From Silvibacterium dinghuense (GTDB lineage: Bacteria > Acidobacteriota > Terriglobia > Terriglobales > Acidobacteriaceae), in contig NZ_SDMK01000001.1 of the NCBI RefSeq assembly GCF_004123295.1, forward strand, positions 2,046,001-2,110,000: 64,000 bases of DNA, in the 5' to 3' direction. A program made the translations under genes and the position numbers. The notes below the pieces were generated by a model that was not told where the DNA came from, ran no database searches, and saw only the letters and a program-made list of their open reading frames with translations. Positions 9,339 to 16,581 of this stretch are shown piece after piece. The stretch's first letter is position 1. Each line of letters begins with the position of its first letter.

Positions 9339-9677
9339 TTACCCCGGAGGCCAGGCCATAGGCCGGCCGCCGAGCAGGTGCAGGTGCAGGTGCGAGACGG
9401 TCTGGCCACCGTCCGGGCCAGTATTGATGACGACGCGATAGCCATTGTCGAGGCCATGCTCACGGGCCAGCCCGGCAGCTGTGACGTGCATGTGCCCGAG
9501 GACAGCCTTGTGATGCCCGGCGGCCTCGGCCAACGAGCCGATGTGCTCACGCGGAATAATGAGCGCATGGAAGGGCGCCTTGGGGTCAATATCCGCGAAG
9601 GCGTACACCGTTTCATCGGAGTAGAGCTGCTTCGACGGAATCTCTCCCGCCGCAATTTTGCAGAAGATGCAGTCCAT
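9339..9677 (-). CDS. HIT-family nucleotide hydrolase
   Basis: 112 residues beginning MDCIFCKIAAGEIPS, the standard HIT/HINT opening with its CxxC pair. The catalytic histidine triad is TVSHLHLHLLGG near the C-terminus (HxHxHxx). Conserved middle elements are FADIDPKAPFHALIIPREHI. HIT proteins hydrolyse AMP-linked phosphoramidates or dinucleotides. It lies 53 bp after the M48 protease gene on the same strand and may be co-transcribed with it. ATG 9689 is an alternative start four codons upstream. The stop is two bases from the convergent EAL-HDOD stop. Confidence 0.93.
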   Translation of the reverse strand: MDCIFCKIAAGEIPSKQLYSDETVYAFADIDPKAPFHALIIPREHIGSLAEAAGHHKAVLGHMHVTAAGLAREHGLDNGYRVVINTGPDGGQTVSHLHLHLLGGRPMAWPPG

Positions 9678-9730
9678 GCCCTCCAGCATGCCACGGGGAT
9701 GCATTCCGAGGCGAACATGCGCCGGCAAAA

Positions 9731-10945
9731 TCAGGGCGCAGGCGGGAAGTAGCGCGGGCGCTTGCCTGGGCCCCAGGGATCGTACTGCGCGGCAAAGCGC
9801 ACCCGCTCAGCAATCGAAGGATGGCTACTGGTCCACCACTCGACCAAGGCATTGGGGGCAGGGTCTTCGAGCCACAGCTCGCCGAGATGCTGGAAGTTTC
9901 CGGCGCAAAGAGCCTGGGGATTGGCGACTATGCCATGCAGTGCTTCCTGGCCATAGACATCGGCCGCGTGCTCTTCCCAGCGGCTGAAGACATTTGCAAC
10001 CGGATCGGCTACAAATCCGAGCAGCGACATGGCGAGCAGCAGCAGACCGAGCGAAGACCAATCGTCGAGCGAAGGAATACGCCAGCGCTGGCCACGGCAG
10101 GCGACGGCCCAGACAAGGAGGCGTGCGGCGATCCAGAAGAAGACAAGCATGACAACAAAGGAGTAGAGCATGCCGAGATAGATATGGTGCAGCACGTAGT
10201 GGCCCTGCTCATGCGCGTACATGGCAAGAATTTCGTCGGAGGATTCCATGGTGAGCGAAGTATCCCAGACGACGATGCGCTTGGAGGCGCCGAAGCCGGT
10301 GACATAGGCGTTGGGAGCAGCCACCTTGCGACTCGCGTCCATGACGAACATGCGCGAGGGCGGGATGGCGAGGCCGCCACGCTGCACGACACGCTCGAGG
10401 GACTGGACGAGCGCGGGGTCACGCTGTGCGAGCGGGGAGAAATGATCGAAGAGCGGATCGATCACGATGGGAACGATGAAGACAGCAGCGACTTCGCAGG
10501 GAATGGCGAGGATCCAGAACCAGAGCCACCAGCGGCGCGGCGATTTGCGCAGCAGTGCATAGAGCACACCGAACGCGATAGAGCCGAAGAGAAGCGTCAG
10601 CACCACAGACTTGGCGAAGTCACTGAGCCAGAGCTGCCAGCTTTCCACCGAGATGCCATAGAGACGGTACTGATGATGGAGATAGAGCGAGGCAGGCAGA
10701 TCGATCGCAGTGAGCAGCAGCAGCCACGGCGGCGCAACGAGGAGGCCCTGAAGCCATTTGCGCGGGGTGCATCGCGCAGCCCAGCCGGCGATGCGGGCAC
10801 CGAGACCGGATTGCACGAGGAGCCAGAGAACAAGCAGCGTCCAGGCAGTACCGCCAAAATGCGCGAGGGTGCGGGCGTGGCTGAGTGCCTGCGCCTTGAG
10901 CAGCTTGTCCGGTGGCAGCGTGTAGACGGTGGGGAAGCTCGTCAT
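9731..10945 (-). CDS. M48-family Ste24-like membrane metalloprotease
   Basis: 404 residues with several transmembrane segments: about 33-48, 65-85, 112-132, 140-165, and two more between 257 and 315. The zinc motif is HEQGH (245-249), inside the expected AMYAHEQGHYVLHH. A second acidic ligand lies in SRWEEHAADVYG (about 321-332). The stretch APNAYVTGFGASKRIVVWDT is diagnostic of the Ste24/CAAX-protease branch of M48 rather than HtpX. The enzyme should cleave membrane or membrane-associated proteins. It is divergent from the exported TldD-like pair, whose start is about 130 bp away. Length matches Ste24-type proteins. Confidence 0.92.
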   Translation of the reverse strand: MTSFPTVYTLPPDKLLKAQALSHARTLAHFGGTAWTLLVLWLLVQSGLGARIAGWAARCTPRKWLQGLLVAPPWLLLLTAIDLPASLYLHHQYRLYGISVESWQLWLSDFAKSVVLTLLFGSIAFGVLYALLRKSPRRWWLWFWILAIPCEVAAVFIVPIVIDPLFDHFSPLAQRDPALVQSLERVVQRGGLAIPPSRMFVMDASRKVAAPNAYVTGFGASKRIVVWDTSLTMESSDEILAMYAHEQGHYVLHHIYLGMLYSFVVMLVFFWIAARLLVWAVACRGQRWRIPSLDDWSSLGLLLLAMSLLGFVADPVANVFSRWEEHAADVYGQEALHGIVANPQALCAGNFQHLGELWLEDPAPNALVEWWTSSHPSIAERVRFAAQYDPWGPGKRPRYFPPAP

Positions 10946-11074
10946 AGAGCCAGCATAGAGCCGGACGCGGATGTTTGGGCAGGCGCGATTCACATTGCCT
11001 CGTAACGGGCAGGCAAGTACACTGGCGACACTCAGGCCTACCTCTGACCCGGCCTGTACCGAGCGTCTTTCCGC

Positions 11075-12823
11075 ATGTTGCATCGTTCGCGCCGTCTTCT
11101 TTCCTCTGTCGTTCTCGCCTCCACGACTTTTTTTGCACTGCCGCTGCTGGCTGCGCCTGGCTCCCAGCCCGATTCGCCACTTCTCAACGCAATGAGCACA
11201 GAACTGCATCGTGCGGTAACGAGCCTGGGCGCGCCATCCGCAGGCAAAGCGGATGACGACTCGCAGCCGGCTCCCTACTTTGTGAGCTACGACGCGCACG
11301 ACCTCTCGACGGTGTCCATCACCGCGCAGCAGGGCGCGCTGCTGGGAGATGACGCGGCGAACAACCGCGTGGTGGATGTCGTGATCCGCGTAGGCAGCCC
11401 GGCGCTGGACAACACGCATGGGCAGCATCGCGCCTCCGCGATTACGACTGTGCCGCTGCCGCTGGCCGATGACCAGGAGGCGTTGGCGCGGTCGCTGTGG
11501 TATGCGACGAATGCGGGCTACGGCAAGGCGCTGCAAACCTATCTGCAGGTAAAGACCGAGACGGGCGTGCGCGCAGACGAGGAAGATAAATCGCCGGACT
11601 TCTCGAAAGACACGGCGCAGACGGCATTGCAGGCTCCAGCACCTTCCCTCTCCGTGAACCGCGCGGCATGGGGCGAGCGGCTGCGAGCGCTGTCGGCAGT
11701 CTTTCGTGAGTATCCGCACGTGTACACGAACTTCGTGATGATGACGGCACAGAGTGAGACCGGATACTTCGTCTCCTCTGAAGGCGCGAAGGTGGTGACG
11801 CCACACCAGCTGGCGCGCGTCGTGGTATTTGCGAGCACGCGCGCCGATGACGGGATGGACCTCTTCCGCGCGCAGACCTTCGAAGCCAGAACTGCGGCCG
11901 AGCTGCCTTCGCAAAAAGAGATGGAAGCAGCAATGCACAAGCTGGGCGCGAGCCTCGAGGACCTGCGCAAGGCGCCTGTGACACAGCCCTACGATGGACC
12001 GGCGCTGCTCTCGGGCCGCGCAGCAGCGGTGTTCTTCCACGAAGTGCTGGGACATCGGCTGGAAGGCCAGCGGCAGCGTGGCGACCAGGAAGGGCAGACC
12101 TTTACAAAGGACATCGGCAAGGCGATTCTGCCGCCGTTCCTCTCGGTGGCCGACGATCCGACGATGGCGACCTTCGACGGCACATACCTGAGCGGCTATT
12201 ACAGCTATGACGATGAAGGGCAGCGTGCGGAACGGGTGGCGCTGATCCAGGATGGCGTGCTGAAGACGTTTCTCATGTCGCGGCTGCCCATCGCGAGCTT
12301 CGCCAGCTCGAATGGGCATGGACGCGCGCAGATCGGGCTGATGCCGACGGGCCGGCAAGGGAACCTGATCGTGAGCTCAACGAAAACAGTGCCGGATAAG
12401 GAGCTGCGGCAGATGCTGATCGACGAGGCCAAGAAGCAGAACAAGCCCTACGGGCTCTACTTCGACGACATCTCGTCGGGCTTCGCGGTGACGAATCGCG
12501 CGGCACCGCAGGCTTTCCAGGTGATTCCTCTGGTGGTCTATCGCGTCTATACCGACGGCCGGCCGGATGAGCTGGTGCGCGGGGTGAGCATCGTAGGCAC
12601 GCCTCAGGCGGCGCTGACGCGCATCGTAGCGACGGGCAATCATCCGGAGATATTCAACGGAGAATGCGGGGCCGAGTCGGGGAGCATTCCAGTCTCGGCC
12701 ATTGCGCCGGCGATGCTGGTCAGCGAGATCGAGACGCAACGCCAGGAGCAGGGTACGGCGCGGCCGCCGATTCTGCCACCGCCGACGGCCGTCTCCACGG
12801 CAGCTCCGGAGGTGCATGAATGA
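11075..12823 (+). CDS. Exported TldD-family metalloprotease, catalytic type
   Basis: 582 residues. A signal peptide (LLSSVVLASTTFFALPLLAA, cleavage about residue 27) makes this an exported protein, unlike E. coli TldD. The family zinc motif HExxxH is intact as HEVLGH (322-327), preceded by SGRAAAVFF. The third ligand is a Cys in NGECGAESG (Cys 531), aligning with the Cys of CGKxGQ in TldD. Other family landmarks are ATFDGTYLSGYYSYDDEG and IPLVVYRVY. TldD hydrolyses peptides inside a TldD-TldE complex. The TGA stop overlaps the next start (ATGA). A TACACT -10-like element lies about 40 bp upstream. Substrate unknown. Confidence 0.92.
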   Translation: MLHRSRRLLSSVVLASTTFFALPLLAAPGSQPDSPLLNAMSTELHRAVTSLGAPSAGKADDDSQPAPYFVSYDAHDLSTVSITAQQGALLGDDAANNRVVDVVIRVGSPALDNTHGQHRASAITTVPLPLADDQEALARSLWYATNAGYGKALQTYLQVKTETGVRADEEDKSPDFSKDTAQTALQAPAPSLSVNRAAWGERLRALSAVFREYPHVYTNFVMMTAQSETGYFVSSEGAKVVTPHQLARVVVFASTRADDGMDLFRAQTFEARTAAELPSQKEMEAAMHKLGASLEDLRKAPVTQPYDGPALLSGRAAAVFFHEVLGHRLEGQRQRGDQEGQTFTKDIGKAILPPFLSVADDPTMATFDGTYLSGYYSYDDEGQRAERVALIQDGVLKTFLMSRLPIASFASSNGHGRAQIGLMPTGRQGNLIVSSTKTVPDKELRQMLIDEAKKQNKPYGLYFDDISSGFAVTNRAAPQAFQVIPLVVYRVYTDGRPDELVRGVSIVGTPQAALTRIVATGNHPEIFNGECGAESGSIPVSAIAPAMLVSEIETQRQEQGTARPPILPPPTAVSTAAPEVHE

Positions 12824-14484
12824 TCCGTACACTGACATACGGGCTGCTGGGCGCTGCGCTGGTACTGCCGATTTCCGCCGCAGCACAGACGCAAGCTTCT
12901 TCCAATACAGCAGACGCGGAGAAAGATCCGGTTCTGACGGCGATGTTGACGGAGCTGCATCGGAATCAGTCCCAGCTACAGTTACAAAATTTCGAGAAGC
13001 CATATTACATCGAGTACCGCATCGACGATGTGACGCAGTACGAAGCATCAGCAGGGTATGGCGCTCTGGTTGGCGAGCACGAGACGCATCGGCGCATTGC
13101 ACGCGTAGTGGTGCGGGTGGGAGATTACAAGCTCGACTCCTCGGGCGAGCGCGGCGATGCTTCGCTTGAAGTCACGTCCATCGACAATGACGCGATGGCG
13201 TTGCGCTACGCGCTGTGGGCGGCGACGGACGCAGCCTACAAGAATGCACTCAACAACCTGACGGCGAAGCAGGCAGCGCTCAAGTCGGTGCAGACTCCGC
13301 CACAGGCCGATGATTTTTCGCACGAGAAGGCGGTGGTGTCGATTGCGCCGGTGGCGCACCCCGATCTTGACCGCGCGGCGTGGATGCAACGCCTGGTAGA
13401 GGCGACGGGAACCTACCGCAGCGATGCGGCCACGAAAGACTTTGCCGCAGAGATTCAGACAAGCGAAGGCACGCTCGAGTCGCGGTTGCGCACCGAATAC
13501 CTGGTGAACACCGAGGGAACTATCGTGCGCAAGAGCGGTGTAACCTATCGCGCCGAGGTGCAGGCCGAAGCGCAGGCAGCAGACGGCATGCGCCTTGAAC
13601 GCTCCTACAGCGTGAGCGGCGTAACCAATGCAGACCTGGGCAGCGCAGAACACTTCCACAATGGCATTCTCCGGATGCTTACCGGGTTAAACAATCTGCG
13701 GCTGGCTCCTGTGATGGCCGACGAATATCACGGACCGGTATTGTTTTCGGGCGGCGCATCGGCACACGTCTTCGACGAGCTGTTCGCACGGGCGCTGGCG
13801 GCACACCGGCCGGAGCTGGGATCGTCGGCACGCACGGTTGGGCCGTTCGCTTCGAGCTATCACACGCGTGTGCTGCCGGACTTCATGAAAGTGATCGACG
13901 ATCCTTCGCTCACTACCTTCGACGGCAAGCCGGTGCTGGGCGCGTACACGATCGATGACGAAGGGGTGCCGGCGCAGGCGGTTACAGCGGTCGACAATGG
14001 GCGACTGCTGAGCTATCTCACCGGACGAGAACCGATCCGCGATTTTCCTGCATCGAACGGCCACGCGCGAGCGGCAACAGCTGGCGCGGCAACACCGCGC
14101 GTGGGCGTACTGCACATCGAGTCTTCGGAGACCATCTCGCCTGACGAGCTTGAGAAGAAACTGGTGGCCATGGGCAAGGACCAGGGCCTCGACTCGGTGT
14201 ACCTGGTGGATACGCTGAGCGGGACGGAGCGTCCACGCACGCTGTTCCGCATCAAGGTGTCGGATGGCTCGCGCGAGATGGTGCGCGGAGCACAGCTGGG
14301 CGATGTCGACCTTCGGCTGCTGCGCTCGGGAATCCTGGCGGTGGGCAACAATCCATATGTCGCCAATACCTTCGGCGACATTCCGAGCACCGTGATTGCG
14401 CCGCCGCTGCTCTTTGACGATGTGACGGTGAAGAAGGCAGAGCAGAGGAACGACAAGCTGCCCTACTATCCTCCGCCACAATAG
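12820..14484 (+). CDS. Exported TldD/TldE-like protein lacking zinc ligands
   Basis: 554 residues with a signal peptide (TYGLLGAALVLPISAAAQ, cleavage about residue 22). It aligns along its length with the preceding gene: DPSLTTFDGKPVLGAYTIDDEG matches ATFDGTYLSGYYSYDDEG, and ISPDELEKKL matches VPDKELRQML. The HExxxH site has become DELFAR (319-324), and the Cys-bearing loop reads NTFGDIPST with no Cys, so all three zinc ligands are absent. By analogy with TldE/PmbA, it is probably the non-catalytic partner of an exported heterodimer. It is translationally coupled to the catalytic gene, so equal amounts would be made. The pairing is inference; the loss of ligands is seen directly. Confidence 0.88.
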   Translation: MIRTLTYGLLGAALVLPISAAAQTQASSNTADAEKDPVLTAMLTELHRNQSQLQLQNFEKPYYIEYRIDDVTQYEASAGYGALVGEHETHRRIARVVVRVGDYKLDSSGERGDASLEVTSIDNDAMALRYALWAATDAAYKNALNNLTAKQAALKSVQTPPQADDFSHEKAVVSIAPVAHPDLDRAAWMQRLVEATGTYRSDAATKDFAAEIQTSEGTLESRLRTEYLVNTEGTIVRKSGVTYRAEVQAEAQAADGMRLERSYSVSGVTNADLGSAEHFHNGILRMLTGLNNLRLAPVMADEYHGPVLFSGGASAHVFDELFARALAAHRPELGSSARTVGPFASSYHTRVLPDFMKVIDDPSLTTFDGKPVLGAYTIDDEGVPAQAVTAVDNGRLLSYLTGREPIRDFPASNGHARAATAGAATPRVGVLHIESSETISPDELEKKLVAMGKDQGLDSVYLVDTLSGTERPRTLFRIKVSDGSREMVRGAQLGDVDLRLLRSGILAVGNNPYVANTFGDIPSTVIAPPLLFDDVTVKKAEQRNDKLPYYPPPQ

Positions 14485-14566: not shown

Positions 14567-15865
14567 ATGCACGTGCTTCGCTGTCTTGTGGTTCCCGCCG
14601 CTCTCACCGCCGCCCTTATTGCGCTGCCAGTCTTCGCGCAGACACCCGCACGCACACTGATCCGCGCCGGACACGTGCTGAACGTGCATGACGGCTCGGA
14701 GCCCTCCGACCAGACGATCATCGTAACCGGCGACCGCATCACGGCGATCGCGCCCACAGCCTCCACGCCGAAGCAGGCCGGAGACACGGAGATCGACCTG
14801 CGCGGAATGACCGTCATGCCGGGGCTGATCGACGTGCACACGCATCTCACAAGCGCCACCGACTTCGATCCCTACACAGAACTGGCAACCTCGGTCGCGA
14901 AGAGCGCGCTGATCGGCGCACGCAATGCGAAGGTAACGCTCGAAGCCGGATTCACGACGGTACGCAACGTAGGCGCCGAGGGTTATGCGGATGTGGATCT
15001 GCGGGATGCCATCAACGAAGGATTGGTGGAGGGGCCACACATGCAGGTGAGCGGGCCACCGCTGGGCATCACCGGCGGCCACTGCGATGAGAACCTGCTG
15101 CCGATCGGCTACCACGTGCAGGCAGGCGGTGTGGCCGACGGCGTGGAAGCGGTGCAGCACAAGGTTCGCGAGACGATCAAATACGGCGCGGATGTAATCA
15201 AGATCTGCGCGACGGGCGGCGTGCTCTCAAAGGGCGACGACCCGCAGGCATCGCAGTACACGCTCGAGGAGATGAAGGCCATCGTCGCCGATGCGCACCG
15301 GCTGGGGCGCAAGGTGGCAGCGCATGCGCATGGATCGCAGGGCATCCTGTGGGCGACAGAGGCCGGGGTTGACTCCATCGAGCACGGCTCATACATGAAC
15401 GACGAGGATATTGCGGCGATGAAGGCGCACGGTACCTACTTTGTGCCAACGGCGTACCTCATCGACTGGATGCAGCAGAGCGGAAAGCTTCCTCCGTTCT
15501 ATGCCCAAAAGATGAAGGATGTGAGCGCGGTGGAGAAAGCGAATGCCAAGCGAGCCATTGCCGCGGGGCTGAAGGTTGCGCTAGGCACGGATGCAGCAGT
15601 CTATCCGCATGGACTGAACGCGCATGAGCTGGATGTGTATGTGAATCAGTTCGGCATGACGCCGCTGGCCGCGATCCAGACGGGAACGCTCAACGCAGCG
15701 GACCTGATGGGATGGAGCGACAAGATCGGTTCCCTCGACGCGGGCAAATGGGCCGACATCATCGCGGTCGAGGGCGATCCGCTGAAGGATGTGCGCATTC
15801 TTCAGCATGTGCCGTTCGTGATGAAGTCTGGCACCGTCTATAAGAGCGAGATACCACACGCATGA
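14567..15865 (+). CDS. Exported amidohydrolase (prolidase/imidazolonepropionase-like)
   Basis: 432 residues with a signal peptide (LVVPAALTAALIALPVFAQ, cleavage about residue 24). The amidohydrolase-superfamily metal site is complete: HTH (91-93) after GLIDV, the carboxylatable Lys in DVIKICATGG (Lys 212), HAHG (253-256), SIEHG (270-274), and the catalytic Asp in LGTDAA (Asp 342). This subgroup includes exported Xaa-Pro dipeptidases and related peptide or lactam hydrolases, so it may trim short peptides. It follows the TldD-like pair by 82 bp, where a TACACT -10-like element (14524) suggests its own promoter. The stop overlaps the methyltransferase start. Confidence 0.92.
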   Translation: MHVLRCLVVPAALTAALIALPVFAQTPARTLIRAGHVLNVHDGSEPSDQTIIVTGDRITAIAPTASTPKQAGDTEIDLRGMTVMPGLIDVHTHLTSATDFDPYTELATSVAKSALIGARNAKVTLEAGFTTVRNVGAEGYADVDLRDAINEGLVEGPHMQVSGPPLGITGGHCDENLLPIGYHVQAGGVADGVEAVQHKVRETIKYGADVIKICATGGVLSKGDDPQASQYTLEEMKAIVADAHRLGRKVAAHAHGSQGILWATEAGVDSIEHGSYMNDEDIAAMKAHGTYFVPTAYLIDWMQQSGKLPPFYAQKMKDVSAVEKANAKRAIAAGLKVALGTDAAVYPHGLNAHELDVYVNQFGMTPLAAIQTGTLNAADLMGWSDKIGSLDAGKWADIIAVEGDPLKDVRILQHVPFVMKSGTVYKSEIPHA

Positions 15866-16581
15866 AGGCAACGGGCTTTGAGTTTCGCTTTCGCATCTGG
15901 ATCGGGTTCCTGATTTATGTGCTGGGCTTCTGGACGCCATGGCTACGCTATGGCGCTGGCGCGGCTCGGGTAACAACGACATGGCTCGAGCTTTCGGGCG
16001 AGCTGGGACGCGTCATGCCGCTCGAGACGGCTTCTCTCACGATCACGCTGGCAGCGCTGGCATGCATCGCAGCCGGCGCTGCATTTCGCGTGTGGGGCAC
16101 AGCCTATCTCGGCGGCTCGATCGTGCAGTCGGCGACGATGCATGCACAGGGAGTGGTCGCAGCCGGGCCGTATCGGCACGTACGCAACCCACTCTACTTC
16201 GGCGCATGGCTGTTCGGCGTGGGTATCTCGATCCTGATGCCGGTGACGGGAGCCCTGGTGTTCATCGTGCTGAGCTTTGTGCAGGTCCTGCGGCTGATCC
16301 TGCGAGAAGAGCCATATCTCACCGGGCAGCAAGGGCAGGCGTATCTCGACTACTGCGCGCGAGTACCGCGATTTGTGCCCAGCGCAAAACCGAAGCTGGC
16401 AGCATCCTCTCTGCATCCCGCGTGGGCACAGGCCATGGTGGCAGAGAGCTTCTACCTGACCATGCTGATCGCATTTGCCGTGCTGGCGTGGCGCTATAAC
16501 GCGCAGCTGCTGACGCAGGCACTGCTGGTGTGCTTCGGGCTGTCACTGGTGGTGCGAGCGCTGTTCGTGCGCAAGGCATGA
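15862..16581 (+). CDS. Isoprenylcysteine carboxyl methyltransferase-like membrane protein
   Basis: 239 residues with about five membrane segments (13-28, 60-76, 115-145, 190-215, 217-233). The ICMT/PEMT signature is clear: GPYRHVRNPLYFG (102-114) and EE (149-150), GQAYLDYCARVPRF (158-171), which bind S-adenosylmethionine. Eukaryotic ICMT methylates prenylated Cys; bacterial relatives are mostly uncharacterised and may methylate lipids or small molecules. It is coupled to the amidohydrolase by an ATGA overlap. The presence of a Ste24-like protease 5 kb away is suggestive, but no prenyltransferase is in the window. Confidence 0.86.
   Translation: MKATGFEFRFRIWIGFLIYVLGFWTPWLRYGAGAARVTTTWLELSGELGRVMPLETASLTITLAALACIAAGAAFRVWGTAYLGGSIVQSATMHAQGVVAAGPYRHVRNPLYFGAWLFGVGISILMPVTGALVFIVLSFVQVLRLILREEPYLTGQQGQAYLDYCARVPRFVPSAKPKLAASSLHPAWAQAMVAESFYLTMLIAFAVLAWRYNAQLLTQALLVCFGLSLVVRALFVRKA

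Follow-up and report, generated by a model that had tools for sequence, protein, structure and literature searches.

The 64,000-nucleotide stretch of the Silvibacterium dinghuense genome analysed here (‘the window’; contig NZ_SDMK01000001.1, positions 2,046,001 to 2,110,000) carries two overlapping genes whose products, P0001 and P0002, probably form an extracytoplasmic zinc peptidase: a TldD/TldE-like heterodimer with one catalytic and one non-catalytic (‘dead’) subunit, whose asymmetry evolved independently of TldE. The E. coli TldD/TldE complex is cytoplasmic, and has been studied as an intracellular peptidase in the processing of antitoxins and of ribosomally synthesised and post-translationally modified peptides (RiPPs). 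Our reading draws on computed results for the fold family, the conservation of the metal ligands, the pairing of the genes, the constraint on both of them, and their placement in a separate clade.

Gene 1 (plus strand, 11075..12823) encodes the catalytic subunit P0001 (582 amino acids) and gene 2 (plus strand, 12820..14484) the non-catalytic subunit P0002 (554 amino acids); both are defined by their open reading frames, by matches to PF19289 and by AlphaFold (AF2) models, with P0001 also matching the TldD structure 5nj5_A. The genes overlap as ATGA, with the start of gene 2 inside this overlap. An initial annotation, made from the sequence alone, had described this arrangement along with a set of blocks shared by both genes, and the description holds at the same coordinates: an alignment of the two proteins over 572 columns gives 31% identity (E 1e-59), and the shared blocks therefore reflect homology rather than chance. 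It had also read HEVLGH and the Cys of NGECGAESG in the first gene, with DELFAR and NTFGDIPST at those places in the second, and all four motifs are found where it put them. By homology, HEVLGH (12038..12055, plus strand; aligned with TldD H262/E263/H267) would provide two metal ligands, His322 and His327, and a general base, Glu323. Cys531 (12665..12667, plus strand), aligned with TldD Cys454, would be the third ligand; it sits inside a ‘clamp’ segment, located on P0001 at approximately residues 527-540 by setting C454 equal to C531. In P0002, alignment puts DELFAR (13774..13791, plus strand) at the degenerate HExxxH position and NTFGDIPST (14365..14391, plus strand) in a clamp segment that is partly retained, without the Cys.

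Both proteins fall inside the PmbA/TldD family in a profile search, as the initial annotation had proposed. PF19289, the TldD/PmbA C-terminal domain, is matched at 99 bits by P0001 and 66 bits by P0002 (curated cut-off 22), and the Pfam models of the first and second TldD/PmbA domains give no match to either protein up to E 1. P0001 scores far under the cut-offs of the NCBIfam TldD equivalog models (41.6 bits against 513, and 69.5 against 635), which makes the window proteins distant members of the family. By phmmer, P0001 aligns with E. coli TldD (5nj5_A, E 5.3e-13), and P0002 has no match among PDB sequences at E 1. AF2 models were built from 9 sequences for P0001 and 10 for P0002, with a mean predicted local distance difference test score (pLDDT) of 65.7 and 78.5, respectively. 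In Foldseek searches, the P0001 model matches TldD 5njf_A with E 1.7e-21 and a template modelling (TM) score of 0.54 by query length over 472 alignment columns; the P0002 model matches 3qtd_A (E 5.4e-26, TM 0.60) and 5njf_A (E 6.4e-26, TM 0.62; both by query length), its best match spanning 523 alignment columns. For each model, all 16 matches with E <= 0.001 are TldD/PmbA structures (TM 0.45-0.64 by query length), and the two-domain TldD fold is thus recovered. The window genome holds four PF19289 genes: the exported pair plus one gene each for PmbA and TldD of the ordinary kind. Two Acidobacteriota genomes (G022 and G035) have 8 and 9 PF19289 matches (one of the 9 under the cut-off), which is unusual among the 40 genomes compared.

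The zinc site is asymmetric in the exported pairs that were aligned. The phmmer alignment sets H322, E323, H327 and C531 of P0001 on the HExxxH motif and Cys of E. coli TldD, for which the excerpts of PMC5810440 drawn on here give His262, His267 and Cys454 as metal ligands, propose Glu263 as the acid-base catalyst, and state that no TldD ligand is conserved in TldE. In a ligand alignment of 58 rows (20 catalytic, 20 non-catalytic and 1 single-gene exported proteins, 8 TldD and 9 PmbA), all four residues are kept in 20/20 catalytic, 8/8 TldD and 1/1 single-gene rows; the non-catalytic rows retain the first His in 0/20, the second in 1/20 and the Cys in 0/20. A wider census, covering 116 proteins or fragments at 60 loci, contains 59 with HExxxH: 51 fit the Cys pattern, CGAES is visible in the tail of another 7, and the last (L084) is frameshifted. 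The Cys pattern occurs in none of the 57 without HExxxH, which include a piece of the broken L010 gene. The TldD clamp comprises residues 450-463 (PMC5810440), and the corresponding columns, 529-540, are filled in 55-95% of the 20 non-catalytic exported rows and empty in 9/9 PmbA rows, a comparison that depends on the alignment.

Signal peptides had also been assigned to both proteins at the outset, and this assignment is borne out, as a rule-based prediction, by a signature conserved in the orthologues. Our simple home-made rule (a hydrophobic core, charge and an A-x-A-like site, with start codons picked by script) is passed by both window proteins, with predicted Sec-like signal peptides at approximately residues 1-26 of P0001 (11075..11152, plus strand; similar N-termini in orthologues) and 1-20 of P0002 (12820..12879, plus strand). 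Across the family it is passed by 52/54 catalytic, 47/54 non-catalytic and 2/3 single-gene members, counts that exclude two of the 60 loci with broken or truncated members (L010 and L070); the failures partly resemble a wrong choice of start codon (e.g. L007, L058). Among the controls, 3/19 TldD (5 of the 19 being fragments) and 1/22 PmbA pass, the three TldD being two with Tat-like signals and one fragment. Cysteine content points the same way: C531 is the only Cys in P0001 and P0002 has none; after residue 35, exactly one Cys is present in 42/53 catalytic orthologues, compared with an average of 4.7 per protein in 14 canonical TldD, and the dead subunit shows a weaker contrast (an average of 1.1, compared with 1.9 in 21 PmbA; L010, L070 and L084 excluded from all Cys counts). 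A Cys-poor protein with a signal peptide would fit a periplasmic location. The two Tat-like controls are canonical-type TldD (L095:1489-3012 in G034 and L097:1489-3057 in G005) whose twin-arginine signals, SRRSFLK and SRRDFI, were judged by eye, and the PmbA adjoining them fails the rule; they may represent another type of exported TldD, whose partner perhaps hitchhikes.

The two genes are conserved as a unit. The genome search covered two phyla, with 199 Acidobacteriota and 149 Elusimicrobiota genomes (348 in total); HExxxH was read directly in all 30 Acidobacteriota genomes holding the family and in 22 Elusimicrobia loci, the remaining Elusimicrobiota assignments being made by profile score and position. 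In Acidobacteriota, 30/199 genomes match the catalytic profile strongly, at 397 bits or more; setting aside these genes, their partners and fragments, the other matches listed reach at most 72 bits. The partner is present in 29 of the 30 and adjacent in 28, the two genes of the remaining genome (G051) lying on different contigs, away from contig ends. The family extends beyond Terriglobia and is common in Elusimicrobiota: 64/149 genomes hold it, 62 of them with both genes and 59 with the two adjacent; 2.2-2.3 kb separate the genes in G272 and G293, and in G329 they lie on two contigs. In none of the 348 genomes was a non-catalytic gene found without a catalytic one, so that the second protein does not regularly occur without the first (29/30 and 62/64 genomes hold both), in keeping with the pair as initially drawn. 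In the 55 pairs inspected, a 4-nt overlap is possible in 18, a 1-nt overlap in 10, and the genes of 20 more overlap or are no more than 60 nt apart; gaps of 61-150 nt are seen in 4 and larger ones in 3, with starts picked by script. The dead subunit is itself under constraint, with non-synonymous divergence (dN) of 0.20-0.22 against synonymous divergence (dS) of 1.4-2.4 between three close genomes (the window, L005 from Silvibacterium bohemicum, and L006), dS being near saturation. In each half of the tree, the pair of G121 and G073 (genomes belonging to the window's taxonomic family) groups with those from other families, a pattern suggestive either of joint transfer or of ancient duplicate pairs followed by loss. 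One metagenome-assembled genome (L010:5976-7635) has a single in-frame stop in the catalytic gene beside an intact dead partner, which could be an assembly error. A broader search with six short peptide patterns, in one genome each of 84,980 species, returned 11 relatives: nine of the exported family (seven Acidobacteria, two Elusimicrobia) and two archaeal TldD. Among plasmid records there were 34 matches, all of them short of 80% coverage of the query.

Where did the dead subunit come from? The simplest answer would be that the pair is an ordinary TldD with an ordinary PmbA/TldE, each having gained a signal peptide, and with subunit 2 a PmbA orthologue; the shared architecture and the same loss of ligands would fit, as would the fold search, in which the PmbA structure 3qtd_A is the best match of P0002, slightly ahead of TldD. 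Against this, TldD and PmbA genes of the ordinary kind are still present in the genome, P0002 holds part of a clamp that PmbA is without, and the phylogeny disagrees. In a quick tree of 83 proteins (from 31 of the 60 loci, with 26 of the 41 canonical proteins found), a branch with full support sets the exported family apart from the other proteins, some long branches (e.g. L106) being present. A more careful tree of 58 proteins, with 25 of the 83 rows omitted as long branches or near-copies, separates the exported proteins (both subunits) from canonical TldD and PmbA with support of 100/100, and PmbA forms its own clade. Constraining TldD and the exported catalytic subunits to group together costs 153.7 log units and is rejected by the approximately unbiased (AU) test (p 2.6e-60) under the models used. 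When only the C-terminal domain is used and the motif columns are taken out, support for the split is still 100/100 and AU p is 5e-9, TldD itself not being one clade in that tree. The catalytic profile scores 284 bits against the window's dead partner and 38 bits against the same genome's TldD. An origin from ordinary TldD and PmbA is thus highly improbable.

Taken together, the separate clade, the AU tests, the partial clamp and the difference in profile score indicate that the dead subunit most likely derives from an exported TldD-like gene, and not from PmbA/TldE; were that so, the live/dead split of the TldD fold would have arisen at least twice, and zinc was probably lost from it at least twice. 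The tree is unrooted, and the reading assumes that ligands were lost, not regained; loss rather than gain is what we infer. Gene conversion between TldD- and PmbA-derived neighbours was considered as a cause of the joint clade and thought unlikely, because, outside an Elusimicrobiota side branch, a genome's live subunit does not cluster with its dead one. The initial annotation had called the pair a counterpart of TldD/TldE built by duplication: the architecture and the duplication stand, and a reading of ‘counterpart’ as descent does not, P0002 branching apart from TldE/PmbA and most likely having undergone a zinc loss of its own.

The side branch (L154/L155/L160/L161 type) has its own live and dead subunits, which group with exported single genes; taken at face value, this grouping would imply a third zinc loss. 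Holding all dead subunits together is rejected with 20 non-catalytic rows (AU p 0.022) and not with 24 (0.0815), values that are optimistic in that the side-branch group was chosen after seeing the tree; in the 24-row test tree, the dead subunits are split by weak branches (87/59). We speculate, with considerable doubt, that the TldD fold has repeatedly passed from a catalytic homodimer to a pair with one live and one dead member (in TldE, in the exported pair and in the Elusimicrobiota side branch), and that the exported pair represents an undescribed class of periplasmic chambered peptidase.

Returning to the TldD/TldE-like heterodimer, we propose a model for how it might work. Both subunits would cross the inner membrane by the Sec route and pair in the periplasm to form a hollow shell. 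Subunit 1 would bind a single metal through His322, His327 and Cys531 and cut extended peptides with Glu323 as the general base, and subunit 2, its metal site lost, would serve to complete the shell and the substrate chamber. An exported TldD-like ancestor would have been duplicated, one copy then losing its ligands. The heterodimer, its activity and its periplasmic location are inferred. As to substrates, the narrow channel of TldD/TldE is said in the excerpts of PMC5810440 and PMC10885120 drawn on here to limit activity to unfolded peptides; by analogy, our guess would be unfolded periplasmic peptides, subject to trimming, clearance or maturation.

The gene neighbourhood was clustered for 40 loci, plus 22 Elusimicrobia loci, with Pfam run on 20 selected proteins; in each cluster Pfam was applied to a single representative and the remaining members were assigned by clustering, and the choice of open reading frames was crude. 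In the window, a CAAX-type M48 membrane protease gene (minus strand, 9731-10945) lies divergent from the pair with a HIT gene beyond it (minus strand, 9339-9728; both by neighbour clustering/Pfam), and a plus-strand open reading frame of 394 amino acids opposite the M48 gene (9821-11005) is probably spurious. Downstream, Pfam identifies an amidohydrolase (14567-15865), whose N-terminus resembles a signal peptide on inspection by eye, and a membrane methyltransferase of PEMT/ICMT type (15862-16581). The M48 gene recurs in 13 Acidobacteriaceae loci in addition to the window and the HIT gene in 12. Elsewhere, Omp85 and hexapeptide-transferase genes lie near the pair in three loci and O-antigen-ligase-like genes in four, and in five Elusimicrobia loci (L012, L013, L159, L163, L167; L013 by Pfam, the rest by clustering) the pair sits among molybdenum-hydroxylase (xanthine-dehydrogenase-like) genes with a CsgG/FlgO-like gene. 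Envelope genes thus recur, but vary by lineage and have no background rate, and we do not rely on them for function; a substrate inferred from neighbouring genes was rejected for the same lineage-bound character.

A further possibility is that the zinc site, instead of trimming peptides, hydrolyses amide bonds in an envelope compound that is modified or not a peptide, akin to the N-deacetylase branch of the family. The family has indeed been reviewed as peptidases and N-deacetylases (judging by the title of a review cited as reference 135 in PMC10885120), and genes of LptF/LptG type lie just downstream of the pair in five loci (one of them Pfam-tested), with LpxB upstream in one other, albeit as lineage-bound contexts. 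No partner gene recurs across lineages, and the overall architecture is that of a peptidase; we consider such a role quite unlikely.

Several observations weigh against an exported, TldD/TldE-like peptidase. The first concerns the clamp, which in TldD is tethered by Lys456 to Glu270 and Asp272 (PMC5810440), residues that the exported family does not keep as a set: the Lys456 position is Ala in 20/20 catalytic rows and the Asp272 position is Asp in only 1/20 (His or Gln in 17/20), with Glu retained at the Glu270 position in 20/20. Two Arg positions come after the HExxxH motif in these rows, R328 in 18/20 and R333 in 20/20. With Lys456 and Asp272 replaced, the details of the cleft differ from those of TldD, and the clamp of the exported catalytic subunit is probably held in another way. 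Secondly, the P0001 model is of modest confidence, the 10-residue blocks that contain its motif averaging pLDDT 69 and 55 and the stretch around Cys531 scoring under 50, so that the zinc site rests on the sequence and not on the model. Thirdly, the neighbours show no consistent pathway; besides the pair, no cluster is present in more than 13/40 or 5/22 loci. The parallel divergence of the two subunits, seen as a correlation between their identity matrices (r 0.958 over 51 pairs, excluding L010, L070, L084, L060 and the single-gene loci L085, L152 and L153), also partly reflects shared species history. Finally, three genomes (G033, G254, G301) hold the catalytic gene only, and the partner is therefore not always needed.

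These single-gene genomes bear on the alternative of separate homodimers, in which subunit 1 would act as a peptidase by itself and subunit 2 would have a binding, chaperone or regulatory role. E. coli TldD and TldE are each reported to be able to form homodimers, and an active homodimeric TldD from Sulfolobus has been described (both via PMC5810440); by the same source, activity of the E. coli proteins was seen only with both subunits, and the strong pairing of the exported genes, the many overlapping or near starts, and the parallel trees speak for a joint function. We regard separate homodimers as unlikely. Two of the catalytic-only members look exported (L152 and L153, in G254 and G301), with no dead partner at the thresholds used; the L152 gene is flanked by folate genes of MTHFR and FolD type, and the neighbours of L153 fall into the same clusters. 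The third (L085:7768-9420, in G033) fails the signal rule, has 8 Cys after residue 35, and is perhaps cytoplasmic.

If the heterodimeric reading is correct, a chambered zinc peptidase operates outside the cytoplasm in two phyla, and a pair with its own, separately evolved dead subunit offers a ‘natural replicate’ for asking why a single dead subunit is favoured in the TldD fold. Through exported single-gene relatives, the role of that subunit becomes directly testable and, should live/dead splits have arisen repeatedly, those of the Elusimicrobiota side branch would reveal what the dead subunit contributes. We found no account of exported TldD pairs in the open-licence literature, as judged on titles and the openings of abstracts.

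The closest known system is E. coli TldD/TldE (PmbA), a heterodimer classified as MEROPS M103 (excerpts of PMC10885120), with which the exported pair shares the fold, HExxxH and a remote Cys in one subunit only, and a paired non-catalytic subunit (PMC5810440, in part). It differs in carrying signal-peptide-like N-termini on both subunits, in the replaced Lys456/Asp272 tether, in N-terminal regions that the Pfam first- and second-domain models do not recognise, and in a dead subunit of separate origin that has kept part of the clamp. PmbA/TldE and the exported dead subunit are both non-catalytic and have the same fold, but PmbA is without the clamp (9/9 rows) and forms its own clade. The Tat-signal TldD of L095 and L097 are likewise exported-looking relatives of TldD, but lie inside canonical TldD and carry a twin-arginine-like signal. 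Lastly, the Sulfolobus TldD homodimer (Hu et al. 2012, via the excerpts of PMC5810440), an archaeal enzyme reported to be active without a dead partner, resembles in this respect the single-gene genomes described here.

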